From assembly GCA_009392285.1 (NCBI GenBank), contig VFGU01000002.1, positions 1-45,523 on the forward strand: 45,523 bases of DNA, written 5' to 3'. Source of the DNA: SAR202 cluster bacterium (GTDB taxonomy: Bacteria > Chloroflexota > Dehalococcoidia > Lucifugimonadales > Lucifugimonadaceae). Below the pieces are notes generated by a model, which did not search any database, had not been told where the DNA came from, and saw only the letters and a program-made list of their open reading frames with translations. Positions 4,241 through 44,796 of the stretch are shown piece after piece. Both the position numbers and the translations under genes were made by a program. Every line of letters begins with the position of its first letter. Position 1 is the stretch's first letter.

Positions 4241-4269
4241 TTGACAACTTTTAGTTCGAAACATACTAT
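4241..4269 (+). promoter_or_regulatory. Promoter of the cysteine leader / sulfur operon
   Basis: A consensus -35 TTGACA (4241-4246) and a -10 TACTAT (4264-4269) are separated by 17 bp. The predicted start is near 4275-4279, which puts the leader ATG (4279) at or within about four bases of the RNA 5' end, so the leader mRNA is probably leaderless or nearly so. No ribosome-binding site precedes that ATG, which agrees with this reading. Confidence 0.75.
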
Positions 4270-4278
4270 CTCATTGTT

Positions 4279-4338
4279 ATGAAATTATACTGCGCAAATG
4301 TGTGTTGTTGCTGTACCTGTTTAGGCAGGGGCATCTAG
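4279..4338 (+). CDS. Poly-cysteine leader peptide (attenuator uORF)
   Basis: A 19-codon ORF encodes MKLYCANVCCCCTCLGRGI and ends with TAG. Six of 19 residues are cysteine, with four consecutive Cys codons (TGT TGT TGC TGT, 4303-4314) and another at 4318. It follows a strong promoter almost directly, and is followed by an intrinsic terminator and then a sulfur transporter gene. Amino-acid-biosynthesis leader peptides carry runs of codons for the regulated amino acid, and poly-Cys leaderless uORFs controlling cysteine operons are known in mycobacteria. From these I infer a cysteine-sensing leader peptide whose translation, not its product, matters. Confidence 0.82.
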   Translation: MKLYCANVCCCCTCLGRGI

Positions 4339-4373
4339 TTGCGCAAAATAAGTAGTAACGTGAGGATGGCCCC
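4291..4373 (+). promoter_or_regulatory. Attenuator: protector and antiterminator pairings
   Basis: Two alternative pairings are visible. TGCGCAA (4291-4297) pairs with TTGCGCA (4339-4345) and would enclose the Cys codons. GGGGCATC (4328-4335, the last sense codons of the leader) pairs with GATGGCCCC (4365-4373) over 8 bp with one bulged G, using the 5' arm of the terminator. If ribosomes stall on the Cys codons, GGGGCATC stays free and the antiterminator can form. If they reach the TAG at 4336 they cover it, and the terminator forms. The mechanism is inferred from the pairings. Confidence 0.7.
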
Positions 4374-4392
4374 GAAAAATCGGGGCTTTTTT
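4369..4392 (+). terminator. Intrinsic terminator before tsuA-like gene
   Basis: GCCCCGA (4369-4375) pairs with TCGGGGC (4380-4386) around an AAAA loop, followed by six T (4387-4392). The tsuA-like ATG lies only two bases beyond the T run, so the terminator clearly acts on that operon. The GGGG of the 3' arm (4382-4385) is the only ribosome-binding-site-like sequence before that ATG, so the stem may also limit translation of read-through RNA. Confidence 0.88.
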
Positions 4393-4394
4393 AA

Positions 4395-5615
4395 ATGGAA
4401 ACAATTACAAAAAATCTAGTAAATATAAAACTGTCATCGATAGTTGCTGCTATTTTTATAATTGGATTTGGATTTTACTTAAATACAATTAGCCAGATTA
4501 CTGGGTTAATTTGGATCTTTTCAATTTTAGCAGGCATTACTTTACAAAGAAGTAGGCTTTGTTTTGCATCATCTTTTAGGGACCTTTTTTTATTTGGTAG
4601 CACTAAGACTTTAAAGGCAATACTAATTGGGTTAATGATTTCCTCTCTTGGATTCGTGCTTGTTATGAGGTCTATTATTCTAGATCCAACGATAGGATCA
4701 ATGCCCTCAGATCCATATATTCTTCCTTTTGGGATTTCTACAGTTATTGGAGGATTATTATTTGGTTTTGGAATGGTAATTTCTGGAGGATGTGTTTCTG
4801 GCTCACTCTATAGAATTGGAGAGGGATATGTTGCCTCATTAGTTACAATAATCGGAGTATTAATTGGGCTGGCTATCTTATCTCTAACTTGGAATTGGTG
4901 GTGGGATAATTTGATAAGTAATGAACCGAAACTTTGGCTTCCTCAGATACTTGATATTGGGTATCTAGGTGCTGTTCTTATCACTTTATTGATTGGAGGA
5001 GCAGTATTCATTGGTTTAACTTTTTTTGAACACAAATCAGGATATAAAGAATATAAATTTACTCAAAAAGAAACTCAATTTGAATCTTTGATAGAAAAAT
5101 TAATGTCTCCTCTATATGTGATTTTTAAGTTACCTTGGAATATAACTCTTGGAGCAATAATTATTGGATTTATAAGTATGTTTTTATTATTGATAGCCAA
5201 GCCATTTGGTGTAACAGGAGAACTTTTTGCATCATCTAATAGAATACTTGACTTAATTGGAATTGCACCAGTAAATAAGGGTTTAAATGAGTTAGGGGGC
5301 TGTGTTGCAAACGCTTCTTCAAATTCTTCTTATATTTCAAATTCATTTGCTGCTACATGGGGCATCATTCCAGGATCTTTTTTGGCTTCATCACTTGCAG
5401 GTGAATTTAAAGTAAGAATTCCTAAAGAAAAATTAAGGTTTTTCCAGTCAATTTTTGGAGGGGTATTTATGGGCTATGGAGCAGGGCTTGCAATAGGATG
5501 TACTTTGGGGTCTTTCTTTTCAGCAATTCCTTCTATGAGTCTAAGTGGGTGGCTTTTTGGTCTTTCTTTGGCTGGAGGAGCATTCATAGGCACAAAGGTT
5601 ATAAGGAGATTTTAA
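4395..5615 (+). CDS. tsuA: YeeE/YedE (TsuA-type) thiosulfate/sulfur importer
   Basis: A 406-residue polytopic membrane protein of the YeeE/YedE family, whose characterised member TsuA imports thiosulfate through a line of cysteines. Both repeat halves are present. The family N-terminal block QRSRLCFASSFRDLF is at 51-65. The pore-motif cysteines are visible as GGCVSG (Cys133), GGCVANA (Cys303) and GCTLG (Cys369); Cys56 is also conserved in the family. Length is normal. It is the first structural gene behind the cysteine leader and terminator, and its stop overlaps the start of the next gene (TAATG). Operon context with TusA and a rhodanese strongly supports import of thiosulfate or a related sulfane-sulfur compound for cysteine synthesis. 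The exact substrate is inferred. Confidence 0.87.
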   Translation: METITKNLVNIKLSSIVAAIFIIGFGFYLNTISQITGLIWIFSILAGITLQRSRLCFASSFRDLFLFGSTKTLKAILIGLMISSLGFVLVMRSIILDPTIGSMPSDPYILPFGISTVIGGLLFGFGMVISGGCVSGSLYRIGEGYVASLVTIIGVLIGLAILSLTWNWWWDNLISNEPKLWLPQILDIGYLGAVLITLLIGGAVFIGLTFFEHKSGYKEYKFTQKETQFESLIEKLMSPLYVIFKLPWNITLGAIIIGFISMFLLLIAKPFGVTGELFASSNRILDLIGIAPVNKGLNELGGCVANASSNSSYISNSFAATWGIIPGSFLASSLAGEFKVRIPKEKLRFFQSIFGGVFMGYGAGLAIGCTLGSFFSAIPSMSLSGWLFGLSLAGGAFIGTKVIRRF

Positions 5616-6088: not shown

Positions 6089-7006
6089 ATGAAAACATTA
6101 CTAACTTTAATAACATTAACTAGTTTAATATTTATTTCCTGTGCAGAATCAGAAAGAAATTTAACTGAAATTGATGGAAGAGGTTACAGTAATCCTTCAA
6201 GATTAGTTAGCACCGAGTGGCTTGAATCTGAAATAGATAATGAAGAAATAATAATTATTGACGTTAGAAAAAAAGAAGATTATGACAAAGGTCATATTCC
6301 TGGTGCTTTTCATATGACTCCTGGAGAAGTATTTCAGCAAGAAATAAATGGAGTGAAAGGAATGTTGCCCCAATCTAGTCATATTGAGAAAAATTTAAGT
6401 CTTATTGGTGCAAAAACTGATTCTACTATTGTTCTTTATGATGGAAATTCTAATCTCTGGGCTTCAAGAGGACTTTGGGCTCTACAAGTTTATGGACATA
6501 AGAATACTAAACTTTTAGATGGAGCATGGAGTAAATGGGGGAAAGAAGGAAGAGAAGTATCAACCAGTATTCCTAAAGCAAATGTATCGAATTATAAATT
6601 TGAATCATCTTTAGATAGTTCAATAATTGCAGGCTTTGACGAAATCCTTGAGTCAATAGAAGACCCAACAAAAATAGTATGTGATACACGGTCACCAGAA
6701 GAGTATGCAGGAAAAGATGTTAGAGCTGACAGAGGAGGTCATATTCCTAACTCAAAAAATGTAAATTGGGTTATGGGAGTAAATGAAGAAGGAGAATTTA
6801 AATCTGCATCAGAATTAAAACAACTTTATGAAGGGGCAGGGATTACTGATGGAGAAACAATTTATACATTGTGTCAAACTGCTGTAAGAGCTACTCATAC
6901 TTGGTTTATTCTTACTGATTTATTGGGCGAAGAAAGCGTAAAAGTTTACGATGGCTCATGGACTGAATGGGGTAATGACCCCTCACTTCCTATTGAAACA
7001 AGATAA
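6089..7006 (+). CDS. Tandem-rhodanese thiosulfate sulfurtransferase, lipoprotein
   Basis: A 305-residue protein with two rhodanese domains (about 36-155 and 178-303), like thiosulfate or 3-mercaptopyruvate sulfurtransferases. The catalytic loop is CQTAVR with Cys262; the N-terminal domain has DVRKKEDYDKGHIPGA but no active cysteine, as usual for tandem rhodaneses. A lipoprotein signal precedes the domains (lipobox FISC, Cys18), placing the enzyme outside the cytoplasm, next to the importer rather than downstream of it. A GGAG ribosome-binding site (6078-6081) sits just before the ATG. It is the last clear member of the leader-controlled operon. An outside role, such as converting thiosulfate to a transportable persulfide or the reverse, is inferred. 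Confidence 0.88.
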   Translation: MKTLLTLITLTSLIFISCAESERNLTEIDGRGYSNPSRLVSTEWLESEIDNEEIIIIDVRKKEDYDKGHIPGAFHMTPGEVFQQEINGVKGMLPQSSHIEKNLSLIGAKTDSTIVLYDGNSNLWASRGLWALQVYGHKNTKLLDGAWSKWGKEGREVSTSIPKANVSNYKFESSLDSSIIAGFDEILESIEDPTKIVCDTRSPEEYAGKDVRADRGGHIPNSKNVNWVMGVNEEGEFKSASELKQLYEGAGITDGETIYTLCQTAVRATHTWFILTDLLGEESVKVYDGSWTEWGNDPSLPIETR

Positions 7007-26541: not shown

Positions 26542-26571
26542 TTGAAATATAAAAAATTAATATGCTATAAT
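26542..26571 (+). promoter_or_regulatory. Promoter of the metY riboswitch RNA
   Basis: TTGAAA (26542-26547) and TATAAT (26566-26571) are separated by 18 bp. The predicted start near 26578 coincides with the first base of the riboswitch P1 stem. Confidence 0.78.
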
Positions 26572-26577
26572 GGATAT

Positions 26578-26649
26578 AAGTGTTGATTTGAAAGTCAGCT
26601 TGCGGACACTTTAAAAACTGCTAAAGAGGCAAAATTGTTAATGTGTCCG
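26578..26649 (+). promoter_or_regulatory. SAM-II/SAM-V-like riboswitch with antiterminator
   Basis: P1 is AAGTGT (26578-26583) with ACACTT (26606-26611). The loop begins TGATTTG (26584-26590) and the 3' strand has GCTAAAGAGG (26620-26629); both are hallmarks of the SAM-II/SAM-V pseudoknot family found upstream of metY in marine bacteria. The P1 3' region CGGACAC (26603-26609) can instead pair with GTGTCCG (26643-26649), an alternative that would break the terminator that follows. SAM binding would hold P1 and allow termination. I did not verify the pseudoknot pairs, and the subclass is uncertain. Confidence 0.75.
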
Positions 26650-26724: not shown

Positions 26725-28047
26725 ATGGCTAGTAGTATAAATGGCATAGTTAATCAGCCAGAAAAACAAGGTATCGGAACCCTTGCACTACACGCGGGAC
26801 AGGATCCTGACCCGTCAACTAATTCTAGAGCTGTACCAATACATGCAACAACATCGTATGTATTTAATGATACAGATCATGCAGCTAATCTTTTTGCACT
26901 AGGTGAATTTGGAAATATTTACACTAGATTGCAAAACCCTACTACTGATGTTCTAGAACAGAGAATTGCAGCACTTGATGGAGGGGTAACAGGACTTGCT
27001 TTTTCATCAGGTCAAGCAGCAATTAATGCTGCTATTCTAACTATTACTCATAGTGGACAAAATTTTATTTCATCAACAAGTTTGTATGGTGGAACATGGA
27101 CACTATTTACCCAAACATTTAAAAAGTTAGGTATAGAGGTAAGGTTCTTTAACCCAGACAACCCTGAAGAGATAAATGATCTTGTAGATGAGAATACAAG
27201 ATGTGTTTATTTTGAAAGTATAGGAAATCCAAAAAATGATGTCCCTGATTTTTCTGAAATAACAAAAATCAGTCATAAGCATGGATTACCAACGATTTGT
27301 GATAACACTGTTCTTACTCCAGCTCTGTTTAGGCCAATTGAGCATGGCGTAGATATAGTTCTTCATTCAACTACAAAATTTCTAGGAGGGCATGGAGTGC
27401 ATATTGGAGGTGCTATTGTAGATAGTGGAAACTTTAAATGGGCAGATAACCCTGATAAATGGCCAGAGTTTTGTGGGCCATCAGAATCATACCATGGTGC
27501 AGTCCTAGAAGAAGCTTTGAGGCCTGCTGGAAACATTGCTTATAATCTCCACATAAGAGTACATTGGCTCAGAGATACAGGTGGAACAATGAGTCCATTT
27601 GGGGCTTGGGCCACTCTACTAGGCTTAGAAACTTTACATTTAAGGATTCCAAGACATTGTGAAAATGCTCTCAAGGTAGCTGAATACCTTGAAAAACATA
27701 AAGATGTGGAATGGGTAAACTATCCTGGTCTAAAAAGTCATTCTCATTATGAGAATACAAAAAAATACTTACCTGATGGGGCTGGAGCAATTCTAGGCTT
27801 TGGTATTAAAGGCGGCAAAGATGCAGCAATCAAGTTTATAAACAATGTGAAACTTGCAAGTCATCTTGCTAATATAGGTGATGCTAAAACATTGGTTATA
27901 CATCCTGCTTCTACAACTCATAGTCAACTTTCTGAAGATGAGCAAAGAGAAGCTGGTGTTAATCCAGAGTACATTAGGGTTTCAGTTGGGATTGAAGATG
28001 TAGATGACATAATTGATGATTTGGACCAAGCGTTAAAGAAAAGTTAA
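26725..28047 (+). CDS. metY: O-acetylhomoserine sulfhydrylase
   Basis: A 440-residue PLP enzyme of the Cys/Met metabolism family that makes homocysteine from O-acetylhomoserine and sulfide. The N terminus (GIGTLALHAGQDPDPSTNSR), the substrate block EFGNIYTRLQNPTTDVLEQR (61-80) and the PLP lysine in LHSTTKFLGGHG (Lys218) are typical of MetY rather than of cystathionine synthases. AAGGAGGT precedes the ATG. The riboswitch and terminator upstream fit control by SAM. It is followed by metX, the enzyme that supplies its substrate, separated by a hairpin. Confidence 0.93.
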   Translation: MASSINGIVNQPEKQGIGTLALHAGQDPDPSTNSRAVPIHATTSYVFNDTDHAANLFALGEFGNIYTRLQNPTTDVLEQRIAALDGGVTGLAFSSGQAAINAAILTITHSGQNFISSTSLYGGTWTLFTQTFKKLGIEVRFFNPDNPEEINDLVDENTRCVYFESIGNPKNDVPDFSEITKISHKHGLPTICDNTVLTPALFRPIEHGVDIVLHSTTKFLGGHGVHIGGAIVDSGNFKWADNPDKWPEFCGPSESYHGAVLEEALRPAGNIAYNLHIRVHWLRDTGGTMSPFGAWATLLGLETLHLRIPRHCENALKVAEYLEKHKDVEWVNYPGLKSHSHYENTKKYLPDGAGAILGFGIKGGKDAAIKFINNVKLASHLANIGDAKTLVIHPASTTHSQLSEDEQREAGVNPEYIRVSVGIEDVDDIIDDLDQALKKS

Positions 28048-42381: not shown

Positions 42382-43317
42382 TTACCACCAAATTTTTTGT
42401 TCTCCAATTTCTTTGATGTCCTTATAGTCCATCTCCCATAACTTGCTAGATAAATATCTTTCTCCTGAATCAGCTATTATTATGACAATATTTCCTGTCT
42501 TGATTTTTTTTGCTACTTTCAATGCTGCTGCAGTAACAGCGCCACATGAAACCCCAGCAAAAATTCCACAACTTTCCATTAACATTTTTGTCCAATAAAA
42601 AGACTCTTCTTCTCCGACCAGAATTCTAGAATCGAGTTTTTCAAGATCAAGAATCGGAGGAATAAACCCATGCTCAATACTTCTTAGTGCTGGAACAACT
42701 TCTTCAGGATGAGGGGCAGCTGCAACTACTTTAATATTTTTATTATATTCTTTTAAAGCCTTTCCAACGCCCATCAAAGTTCCCCCTGTACCCAAGCCAG
42801 CTACAAATACATCTATATCAGGTAACTGTTCAATTATTTCTGGACCTGTAGTTTCATAATGAGCTCTTGGGTTGGCCTCATTTCCATATTGGTACGGCAT
42901 AAAATAATCAGGGTTTTCTTCAGCAATTTTTTCGGCAAGCCTAATAGCACCATTGGTTCCTTGTTCGCCATCCGAGTAAATAATTTCTGCGCCAAGAGAA
43001 AGTAGAACTGACTTTCTTTCATCACTTACATTATCAGGCATAACAACTTTTAACTTATACCCCTTTACCCTAGATATCATGGCTAATGCTATTCCAGTAT
43101 TTCCACTTGTTGGCTCAATAATTGTAGAGCCATCTATTAACTTACCTTGCTCTTCTGCATCCTGAATCAGGTATTTCGCAACCCTATCCTTTATGCTCCC
43201 TGCAGGATTAAAACTTTCAAGTTTTGCAAAAATTTTTACTCCGTTAGGGCTAATGTTGCTGATATCAACCATTGGAGTATTCCCAATTGTTTCAATAATA
43301 TTTTTATCAATTTTCAT
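42382..43317 (-). CDS. Cysteine synthase (CysK/CysM)
   Basis: A 311-residue PLP enzyme of the cysteine synthase family. The PLP lysine is in NPAGSIKDR (Lys43), the substrate loop is PTSGNTG (69-75), and the phosphate loop is GTGGT (about 176-180). It makes cysteine from O-acetylserine (or phosphoserine) and a sulfur donor, or S-sulfocysteine from thiosulfate if of CysM type. Gene order moeB-cysteine synthase, 6 bp apart, recalls actinobacterial CysM, which takes sulfur from a small carrier protein activated by MoeZ/MoeB. No carrier or JAMM protease gene is in the window. It is behind a cysteine leader-attenuator. Confidence 0.88.
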   Translation of the reverse strand: MKIDKNIIETIGNTPMVDISNISPNGVKIFAKLESFNPAGSIKDRVAKYLIQDAEEQGKLIDGSTIIEPTSGNTGIALAMISRVKGYKLKVVMPDNVSDERKSVLLSLGAEIIYSDGEQGTNGAIRLAEKIAEENPDYFMPYQYGNEANPRAHYETTGPEIIEQLPDIDVFVAGLGTGGTLMGVGKALKEYNKNIKVVAAAPHPEEVVPALRSIEHGFIPPILDLEKLDSRILVGEEESFYWTKMLMESCGIFAGVSCGAVTAAALKVAKKIKTGNIVIIIADSGERYLSSKLWEMDYKDIKEIGEQKIWW

Positions 43318-43323
43318 TTCTTC

Positions 43324-44139
43324 TTAACCTTCAATTGAAGGCATTCCACAAAATAGTTCATAATCAATAAGCTCTTTAACTGAAGGGTTATCACCACAAA
43401 GAACACAATTTTCATTTCTTCTTATTTTTACTGTTCTAAATTCCATGCTTAAAGCATCTATTAGTATCATTCTGCCTTTCAATAAATCTCCAGTACCAAG
43501 AATATACTTTATTGTCTCTATTGCCTGTATACTTCCTATTAATCCAGGTAAAGCCCCAATTACTCCTGCTTCAGCACAACTTGGTACAGATCCTGGAGGA
43601 GGAGGATCAGGGAATATACACCTATAGCAATTGCCACCTGGAACATAAGTAGTTATTTGACCATCAAAAGTTAAGACACTGCCATCTATTAAAGGTTTCT
43701 TTGCAAAAAATGTAGCGTCACAAATTAAATATCTTGTTGGAAAGTTATCCGCTCCATTTATCACAACATCATATTTGTTAATAATTTCTAATGCATTTTT
43801 TGAAGTTATTGGCGCATCATGCATTTCAACATCAACATCAGGATTATACGCCTTAAGAGTTTCCATGGCTGACGTAACTTTGCTCTTTCCAATGTCTTCA
43901 TCTCTATGTAGAACTTGCCTTTGAAGGTTGCTTCTATCAACAACATCAAAATCTGCTATTCCAATCCTGCCCGCTCCAGCTAATGCTAAATATAATGCTG
44001 CTGGAGAACCTAAGCCCCCAGCCCCAATTATTAATACACTTGAATTTAATAATTTTCTTTGTCCTTCAGACCCAACTTGAGGCATTATGATATGCCTGCT
44101 ATACCGATCAACTTGCTCTGGATTTAATTTATTTATCAT
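43324..44139 (-). CDS. moeB: MoeB/ThiF-family sulfur-carrier adenylyltransferase
   Basis: A 271-residue E1-like enzyme. The nucleotide loop is GAGGLGSPAA (39-48), the catalytic cysteine is in SCAEAGVIGALPG (Cys188), and zinc ligands are Cys171/Cys174 (CYRC) and Cys245/Cys248 (CVLC). It activates the C terminus of a ThiS/MoaD/CysO-type carrier by adenylation, ready for sulfur loading. The C-terminal rhodanese domain of MoeZ is absent. AAAGGGT precedes the ATG, directly after the terminator's T run. Position ahead of cysteine synthase suggests carrier-dependent cysteine synthesis, though thiamin or molybdopterin roles cannot be excluded. Confidence 0.87.
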   Translation of the reverse strand: MINKLNPEQVDRYSRHIIMPQVGSEGQRKLLNSSVLIIGAGGLGSPAALYLALAGAGRIGIADFDVVDRSNLQRQVLHRDEDIGKSKVTSAMETLKAYNPDVDVEMHDAPITSKNALEIINKYDVVINGADNFPTRYLICDATFFAKKPLIDGSVLTFDGQITTYVPGGNCYRCIFPDPPPPGSVPSCAEAGVIGALPGLIGSIQAIETIKYILGTGDLLKGRMILIDALSMEFRTVKIRRNENCVLCGDNPSVKELIDYELFCGMPSIEG

Positions 44140-44153
44140 TTTTACCCTTTCAT

Positions 44154-44178
44154 AAAAAAAGCCCCGTATTATCGGGGC
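44154..44178 (-). terminator. Intrinsic terminator before moeB
   Basis: On the minus strand GCCCCG (44178-44173) pairs with CGGGGC (44166-44161) around a 6-base loop, followed by seven T (44160-44154). The moeB ATG is 15 bases beyond. Stem sequence and position copy the terminator ahead of tsuA. Confidence 0.86.
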
Positions 44179-44217
44179 ATTGAAGATTAATTTATCTTAT
44201 CTCTATATCAAATGCCC
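44175..44217 (-). promoter_or_regulatory. Antiterminator pairing of the moeB attenuator
   Basis: GGGCATT, within the final sense codons of the leader ORF (44217-44211), pairs perfectly over 7 bp with AATGCCC (44181-44175), which includes most of the 5' arm of the terminator. A ribosome finishing at the TAG (44203-44205) would cover GGGCATT; one stalled at the Cys codons would leave it free. Confidence 0.68.
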
Positions 44218-44274
44218 TTCATAGGTAGCACTACAACACAAACAAAATTTCTTATTTCTTATTGCAACAAACAT
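44203..44274 (-). CDS. Cysteine-rich leader peptide (attenuator uORF) before moeB
   Basis: A 23-codon ORF begins MFVAIRNKKFCLCC and ends with TAG. Three cysteines (positions 11, 13, 14) lie in a row of TGT TTG TGT TGT codons. Its ATG begins one base after the TAA of the Rrf2 gene (TAATATG), with AAGAAG about 8 bases upstream, so it is likely translated from the Rrf2 transcript. Downstream are the antiterminator, the terminator and moeB-cysM. It has fewer cysteines than the leader at 4279 but the same architecture, so I infer the same cysteine-sensing role. Confidence 0.75.
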   Translation of the reverse strand: MFVAIRNKKFCLCCSATYEGHLI

Positions 44275-44275
44275 A

Positions 44276-44716
44276 TTAATTCTTCTTAATCTTCAAGTCT
44301 TCCACAAATACTTTATCTCTATCGGCAAGATCTTGGACGGAAATGGTTTCTAACTTAGAAACTAAGGTTTTTTCAACATCTGACCACATATCTTGCTGAG
44401 AGCACTGACCTGACACTTCACATAAATCTGGAAATTCAATACAAGAAACAGGCGCCATCGTCTTGTCCAATCCGTGAATAACGTCAGCGATTGATATTTC
44501 AGAAGGGTTTTTTGCTAAAGAGTATCCTCCGTTAGGGCCCCTTACACTTTTTATAAATTTTTTTTTCAACAGATCATTAGATATCTGAAACAAAAATTTC
44601 TCTGGAATATGCCTTGCTTTAGATATTTCAGATCCTTTTGCTATAGAATTTTCTGGAATTGTGGCGAGATGAACCAAAATCCTAACTCCATAATCTATTT
44701 TCATAGGTACTAACAT
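44276..44716 (-). CDS. Rrf2-family regulator with Fe-S-type cysteines
   Basis: A 146-residue Rrf2 winged-helix regulator starting MLVPMKIDYGVRILVHLAT. The wing GPNGGYSLAK is intact. Three cysteines (92, 99 and 105 from this start) in C-x6-C-x5-C correspond closely to the 2Fe-2S ligands of IscR. I choose ATG 44716 because AAAGGA lies just upstream and because the predicted promoter start (about 44732) is downstream of the earlier in-frame ATG at 44740. Its position ahead of a cysteine operon recalls CymR, the Rrf2 repressor of cysteine metabolism in Bacillus, but the cysteines point to IscR-like sensing. It is first in a run with the leader, moeB and cysM. Confidence 0.83.
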   Translation of the reverse strand: MLVPMKIDYGVRILVHLATIPENSIAKGSEISKARHIPEKFLFQISNDLLKKKFIKSVRGPNGGYSLAKNPSEISIADVIHGLDKTMAPVSCIEFPDLCEVSGQCSQQDMWSDVEKTLVSKLETISVQDLADRDKVFVEDLKIKKN

Positions 44717-44738
44717 TAATTTTCCTTTGCTTGAATGC

Positions 44739-44796
44739 ATATTAACACGTATTTAGGTTAATCATCTAGATTAATCATCTGAATATGTGCTAATAT
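44739..44796. promoter_or_regulatory. Mirror-image divergent promoters with operator
   Basis: A 58-bp near-palindrome is centred on 44767.5. Its ends are ATATTAACACGTATT (44739-44753) and AATATGTGCTAATAT (44782-44796), matching as inverted repeats at 13 of 15 positions. Each contains an extended -10, TG[T/C]TAATAT, one per direction. The centre is ATCTAGAT (44764-44771), and TTAATCATCT occurs twice (44758-44767 and 44771-44780). This likely drives the Rrf2 gene leftwards and the bL25 gene rightwards, with a central site for a dimeric regulator, plausibly Rrf2 itself. Confidence 0.65.

Follow-up and report, generated by a model that had tools for sequence, protein, structure and literature searches.

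The window, by which is meant the whole 45,523-nt stretch of DNA analyzed, carries two short cysteine-rich open reading frames (ORFs) with an intrinsic terminator behind each, one before moeB-cysM and one before a YeeE/TsuA-type transporter gene (tsuA). The moeB-cysM locus is organized as follows; a Cys-rich ORF at the position of the leader is conserved in nine genomes of the genus.

44276–44740, minus strand: upstream gene for an Rrf2-family regulator (PF02082, E 9.6e-31; TIGR00738, above cut-off)
44203–44274, minus strand: leader ORF of 23 codons with an ATG start, MFVAIRNKKFCLCCSATYEGHLI followed by the stop
44233–44244, minus strand: putative regulatory codons TGT TTG TGT TGT (Cys-Leu-Cys-Cys; the Cys codons are 11, 13, and 14)
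44211–44217, minus strand: putative antiterminator 5′ arm GGGCATT, within the final leader codons
44203–44205, minus strand: TAG stop of the leader
44175–44181, minus strand: putative antiterminator 3′ arm AATGCCC, sharing bases with the 5′ arm of the terminator
44154–44178, minus strand: intrinsic terminator GCCCCG-ATAATA-CGGGGC, a 6-bp all-GC stem (44161–44178) followed by seven T
43324–44139, minus strand: moeB/ThiF-type E1-like adenylyltransferase, the first gene under putative control (PF00899, E 1.2e-81; NF004281, 285 bits, cut-off 266)
42382–43317, minus strand: cysteine synthase (cysK/cysM), the second (TIGR01136, 357 bits, cut-off 344)

The leader ATG lies directly 3′ of the Rrf2 stop codon, and the ORF reads ATG TTT GTT GCA ATA AGA AAT AAG AAA TTT TGT TTG TGT TGT AGT GCT ACC TAT GAA GGG CAT TTG ATA TAG, with the last Cys codon starting 18 nt ahead of the antiterminator G-run. 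A spacer of about 25 nt separates the leader stop from the terminator, and moeB starts about 20 nt past the terminator on the same strand. GGGCATT is the exact complement of AATGCCC, which has GCCC in common with the terminator 5′ arm; the antiterminator and terminator stems are therefore mutually exclusive. A preliminary description had proposed a Cys leader-attenuator before moeB-cysM, with a TAG stop, a perfect GGGCATT/AATGCCC pairing, and a GCCCCG/CGGGGC terminator with seven T; all of these elements, including the Cys codons, are present in the sequence. The Rrf2 gene is likely the start of the moeB-cysM transcription unit. Its product possesses three closely spaced cysteines (SCIEFPDLCEVSGQC), resembling the Fe-S-binding Rrf2 regulators, and might provide this operon with a second sensor, of sulfur or Fe-S.

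The leader before tsuA is laid out on the same plan and is likewise conserved in the genus.

4241–4269, plus strand: promoter-like TTGACA-17-TACTAT
4279–4338, plus strand: leader ORF, MKLYCANVCCCCTCLGRGI followed by the stop
4328–4332, plus strand: putative antiterminator 5′ element GGGGC
4368–4393, plus strand: terminator GGCCCCGA-AAAA-TCGGGGCT with a T tail
4395–5615, plus strand: YeeE/TsuA-type sulfur (thiosulfate) transporter, under putative control of this leader (PF04143, E 5.7e-60)
6089–7006, plus strand: two-domain rhodanese (3-mercaptopyruvate sulfurtransferase-like), downstream of tsuA on the same strand (PF00581, E 6.6e-37)

Since the -10 hexamer ends 9 nt upstream of the leader ATG, the mRNA is probably leaderless. 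The preliminary description had rested part of its case on a GGGCAT element and near-identical stems shared by the two leaders. That argument has been dropped, the letters not being the conserved feature: in other species the antiterminator elements are GGGTATT, GGTGC, GGGGTCAT, CGGGGT, or AGGGG, and each element, GGGCATT included, matches its own terminator arm. What the leaders do conserve is this ability to pair and the spacing between the pairing element and the Cys codons.

Conservation and genomic distribution

The genus set comprised ten genomes, including the home genome (G000; 751 kb, approximately 33% GC); the host is a marine Dehalococcoidia MAG, possibly of a SAR202-type lineage, and the named contigs nearest to it belong to MAGs of marine Dehalococcoidia/Chloroflexi, among them SP248, SP178, NAT172, and bin47o. 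The moeB gene is present in nine of the ten, and in all nine the Rrf2-moeB gap contains a Cys ORF and a terminator. The same combination precedes tsuA in each of the six genomes in which that gene was found, and all three copies in the genus of an AhpC/TSA peroxiredoxin gene (prx). The moeB leader peptides span MFVAIRNKKFCLCCSATYEGHLI, MSIEMKNRKFCLCCHL, MNFAKLCCINCCIL, MIFDLIQDCCCCQYDNGVSTRI, and MNIYCLCKNNNFCLPCTRCRLSCL, and those before tsuA include MKLYCANVCCCCTCLGRGI, MKNITNSNCCCCTPLNGVI, and MINNQQNCICCCCTSLNRGITARMFIH; both peptides and stems vary widely from copy to copy. Every one of the 18 distinct leaders has three to six Cys codons and an intrinsic terminator between the ORF and the first gene, but because the species are related these do not amount to 18 independent events.

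The leader at moeB is a genus-level trait, since other genera of the family keep Rrf2-moeB-cysM without it and none of their 18 Rrf2-moeB loci has a Cys ORF in the gap. Within the genus, every member with the gap retains the leader, and the loss of the leader ORF from relatives that keep the gap, named in the preliminary description as speaking against the proposal, is not seen there; the other genera keep the gap and have no leader. The latter observation would fit a hairpin that, as a good intrinsic terminator situated between Rrf2 and moeB, served only to end the Rrf2 transcript, the Cys-rich ORF being a chance reading. We regard this explanation as extremely improbable, and largely refuted by conservation: in each of the nine moeB-bearing genomes of the genus a Cys ORF, variable in sequence, lies at the appropriate distance; the same arrangement stands before tsuA and prx, where it does not mark a gene end in the same sense; and moeB begins about 20 nt behind the terminator on the same strand.

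Nearly all of the home genome (750 kb) and the most divergent member of the genus (G006; 1.43 Mb) were scanned by listing each short ORF ahead of a pre-gene intrinsic terminator. There were 15 such terminators in G000 and 22 in G006. Each genome gave exactly three ATG-start Cys leaders, located before tsuA, moeB-cysM, and prx. In G000 the third leader is MKFYLTQTCCCCCCQDDNGVTSRV, with six consecutive Cys codons, and the gene next after the peroxiredoxin encodes a DUF4395 protein. The putatively controlled genes all concern sulfur or thiols (cysteine synthase, sulfur transporter, rhodanese, and peroxiredoxin).

These data bear out the regulon and the link to sulfur genes suggested earlier, and add the peroxiredoxin-DUF4395 operon as a third target. 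Because the scans returned only sulfur or thiol targets, the pattern that would have spoken against a regulon, an ATG-start Cys leader and terminator before unrelated genes, was found in neither of these nearly complete scans. The earlier opinion that chance is unlikely is likewise upheld by the conservation at moeB and by the rarity of the terminator pattern: CCCCG..CGGGG-TTTT is found in 19 places in the ten genus genomes, 16 of which are Cys leaders (three of three in G000). Three CCCCG terminators in G003 (contigs C3, C10, and C54) are ordinary terminators without leaders.

Three Cys ORFs with TTG starts were rejected. The candidate at G000 C12:137908 has a TTG start only and lies 125 nt before the next gene; that at G006 C6:57997 is inside a gene end; and that before rpoB (G000 C12:659) overlaps a TTGACA promoter-like site. 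Besides this site, the region upstream of rpoB (G000 C12, approximately 656–845) contains the hairpin TTCGGGGTTTTCCCTGAA as well as AAACCTCGAATTATTTCGGGGTTT, which resembles a terminator and has its 3′ arm sequence repeated upstream; the region is possibly an attenuator of rpoB.

Geometry, pairing, and predicted mechanism

In the classical model of attenuation the A site of the ribosome waits on a codon of the scarce amino acid, and the front edge of the ribosome lies some 12–14 nt further on. Each of the 18 distinct leaders has a Cys codon beginning 13–18 nt upstream of the antiterminator G-run, a spacing that would fit the front edge of a ribosome stalled in this way. The antiterminator element itself starts anywhere from 30 nt before to 4 nt after the leader stop codon, and the modeling indicates that a ribosome resting on the stop, or past the element, would keep the antiterminator from pairing.

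When the RNA left free ahead of the ribosome was modeled, stalling gave antiterminators with predicted energies between -7.6 and -22.5 kcal/mol; for a ribosome on the stop codon the range was 0 to -2.7 kcal/mol. Part of this contrast comes simply from hiding sequence, and the fixed position of the element is for that reason the stronger evidence. Shuffle tests for single leaders were modest (fraction 0 to 0.26). At equilibrium the terminator outcompetes the antiterminator in every modeled state, that with a stalled ribosome included; it forms even without a ribosome, and equilibrium folding does not discriminate between ribosome positions. The switch must therefore act kinetically, the antiterminator forming before the 3′ arm of the terminator has been made. 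In the trp attenuator of E. coli the terminator is likewise more stable than the antiterminator, and by this analogy the equilibrium preference would be neither a contradiction nor support. Candidate 1:2 stems were seen, by eye, in the tsuA and prx leaders only, and do not establish a conserved pause hairpin.

The moeB leaders pair as GGGCATT:AATGCCC, GGGTATT:AATGCCC (with a G-U pair), and GGGTATTT:AAGTACCC. The base at 44178 takes part in both alternative stems, and in G001 it covaries with its two partners: there the shared base has become A and both partners U, so that antiterminator and terminator are kept. This is the only covarying position in the tested moeB helix; the column-shuffle controls on seven sequences do not alone prove covariation, and shuffles of the 3′ letters do not distinguish the helix. 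Pairing amounts to 94% in the original register and to no more than 57% once this is slid by one base. For tsuA, pair counts based on an alignment were left out, because the register of its antiterminator differs by one base from species to species. The leaders of G006 follow the same plan with wholly different stems (GGTGC:GCACC, AGGGG:CCCCT, and CGGGGT:ACCTCG).

Among close species, insertions or deletions after the Cys codons change the frame, the end of the peptide, and the stop, and leave the Cys codons, spacing, and pairing intact. Survival of spacing and pairing through such frameshifts points to a codon sensor rather than a functional peptide. A nascent Cys-rich peptide might nonetheless sense copper, zinc, iron-sulfur, or thiol oxidation and cause stalling itself, independently of any shortage of Cys-tRNA; that one target is a peroxiredoxin operon and that the upstream Rrf2 belongs to a family including Fe-S sensors would accord with this. 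It is highly improbable, given that the peptides share no fixed motif (CLCC, CCINCC, CCCC, CLC-NNNFC-PC-RC, and CCCNCC all occur) and end differently after a frameshift, so that the Cys codons, with their constant spacing to the element, are all that is preserved.

Promoter-like hexamers occur at the tsuA leaders, two of the three prx leaders, and the moeB leader of G003. Apart from the G006 tsuA leader, the -10 in these promoter-bearing leaders (most tsuA, two prx, and one moeB) ends 7–10 nt before the ATG, so that the messages would begin no more than a few bases from it and are probably leaderless. No promoter of its own was found at the moeB leader of the window; as this leader also sits directly behind the Rrf2 stop, ribosomes most likely reach it by restarting after Rrf2. 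The distinction drawn previously between a promoter-proximal first leader (promoter at 4241–4269) and a moeB leader coupled to the regulator gene thus stands. Rrf2 would be made regardless of cysteine, with moeB-cysM being gated.

From the ORF, terminator, mutually exclusive pairing, geometry, conservation, and regulon membership observed in the sequences, we infer translation of the leader, ribosome stalling, termination, and a response to cysteine. Most likely, the Rrf2-moeB-cysM operon contains a Cys-tRNA-responsive, ribosome-mediated transcription attenuator, and the same device at YeeE/TsuA and peroxiredoxin-DUF4395 makes up a small regulon (probability roughly 0.88). Antiterminator/terminator exclusion, geometry, and conservation in the genus all support the attenuator reading first proposed in the preliminary description.

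RNA polymerase passing through Rrf2 would transcribe the leader, and ribosomes ending Rrf2 would restart at the leader ATG. With Cys-tRNA plentiful, the ribosome would reach the stop codon and cover GGGCATT; AATGCCCCG would then pair with CGGGGC, the terminator would form, and moeB-cysM would be off. With Cys-tRNA short, the ribosome would stall at TGT TTG TGT TGT with its front edge just before GGGCATT, which, being free, would pair with AATGCCC once that is made, blocking the terminator and allowing the cysteine-making genes to be transcribed. The same device would control the YeeE/TsuA sulfur transporter and the peroxiredoxin-DUF4395 operon.

The moeB leader of G003 matches the prx leaders of G000 and G002 (alignment z 18–19), including the -10 region and a TTGTCA..TGACAA segment, and does not match the other moeB leaders (z -0.5 to 2.8). 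The simplest reading is that a prx-type cassette of promoter, leader, and terminator replaced the moeB leader, or was inserted before moeB, in this species. Such a replacement would show how cysteine regulons can be rewired.

Relation to known systems and the wider family

In the trp, his, leu, and phe leader attenuators, too, a short ORF carries codons for the amino acid that the operon produces, and the position of the ribosome decides between antiterminator and terminator stems that cannot coexist. The leaders described here differ from that class in that the amino acid sensed would be cysteine, the host belongs to the Chloroflexota, and there is no clear 1:2 pause hairpin; in addition, the moeB copy in the window is inside an operon, coupled to the Rrf2 gene, and other copies are probably leaderless. 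The defining features of leader-peptide attenuators that can be judged from sequence are present apart from the 1:2 hairpin, for which there are candidate stems; that the antiterminator excludes the terminator, is free during a stall, and is covered at the stop codon is predicted by modeling only. No Rfam family matches above its gathering threshold at either leader of the window. Phe_leader (RF01859) reached 29.5 and 25.3 bits against a gathering score of 55, and Trp_leader (RF00513) 16.2 and 14.9 bits against 41. No T-box model matched.

T-box elements and the SAM riboswitches of sulfur genes resemble the present leaders in being RNA control by terminator choice, but here the sensor would be a translated ORF. 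Elsewhere in the window (26570–26645, plus strand), a SAM_alpha riboswitch (RF00521, 43.3 bits, above gathering) stands before a gene for a Cys/Met-metabolism PLP enzyme (26725–28047). The SAM_alpha family is named for the Alphaproteobacteria; the host here is a Chloroflexota MAG.

Mycobacterial polycysteine leaderless short ORFs (sORFs) were reportedly treated by Canestrari in 2020. Cys-rich sORFs before sulfur genes, without terminators, are known from mycobacteria, Propionibacterium, and Bifidobacterium (PMC1262725; PMC4633059). Those of mycobacteria, often leaderless and situated before the cysA2 rhodanese gene and others, were proposed to answer cysteine supply (Shell 2015, PMC4633059), and the polycysteine leaderless sORFs have been described as translational attenuators (PMC13236596). 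They are similar to the present leaders in being Cys-rich and located before sulfur genes, and probably in often being leaderless, but act on translation and have no conserved terminators, whereas a terminator and antiterminator are present here in every case.

Translational attenuation of that kind, with stalling making the ribosome-binding site of the next gene accessible rather than preventing termination, has the mycobacterial precedent (PMC13236596) and the probably leaderless state of several leaders here in its favor. We consider it very unlikely, since each leader here is closed by an intrinsic terminator and T run, with the antiterminator arm overlapping the terminator 5′ arm, while the mycobacterial leaders lacked terminators in the analysis of Seliverstov et al. 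(PMC1262725).

A candidate for transcription attenuation by cysteine is uORFC-8-2 before cysS in the Rhodobacterales, which has two tandem Cys codons and an intrinsic terminator and for which ribosome-mediated transcription attenuation was proposed (PMC8632094). It belongs to the Alphaproteobacteria, precedes cysteinyl-tRNA synthetase, and has its two Cys codons inside the first stem, whereas the leaders in the Chloroflexota (Dehalococcoidia) have three to six Cys codons and precede three other operons (moeB, tsuA, and prx). No description of Cys attenuation in Chloroflexota was found in the open-licence literature. The earlier suggestion that the system is undescribed therefore applies to this lineage in that literature and not to cysteine attenuation as such, given the Rhodobacterales cysS candidate and the mycobacterial leaders.

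In a pattern scan of 76 genomes of the family, conserved elements of the form TGTTGTTGT..GGGG..CCCC turned up in two genera: g9, with six genomes (G035 C3:12557, G026 C85:11115, G066 C13:24258, G017 C31:59964, G068 C98:20471, and G069 C138:1836), and g5, with two (G032 C7:15086 and C34:6754, and G013 C18:27074). In the Cys-codon frame the g9 elements read CCC-T-x-R-R-G-G and those of g5 CCC(P/L)xxNFGV. They are likely further Cys leaders, to be taken as leads only; by coordinates, no peroxiredoxin, YeeE, PALP, or rhodanese gene is adjacent to them, and a scan of viral contigs revealed no g9 element. Many AhpC/TSA genes and some rhodanese genes in other genera of the family (for example, in G017, G026, G068, G069, G012, and G020) contain a single in-frame TGA, which suggests that they encode selenoproteins.

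Cys leader attenuators are rare: the literature searched holds one terminator-bearing candidate class, that before cysS in the Rhodobacterales, together with the translational ones of mycobacteria. The prx-like, promoter-bearing moeB leader of G003 and the polycysteine elements of two other genera are the basis for a broader and more tentative proposal, to which we give somewhat less than even odds: cysteine attenuation may be an old and widespread layer of this Dehalococcoidia family, in which movable cassettes of promoter, leader, and terminator swap operons and link cysteine supply to peroxide defense. If the attenuator reading is true, there is a three-operon cysteine attenuation regulon in the marine Chloroflexota, few of which have been cultivated, and comparing the amount of short leader RNA with that of the full message would give a defined read-out of sulfur starvation that can be scored in metatranscriptomes. 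One signal would tie together cysteine production through moeB-cysM, a sulfur importer, and a peroxiredoxin.
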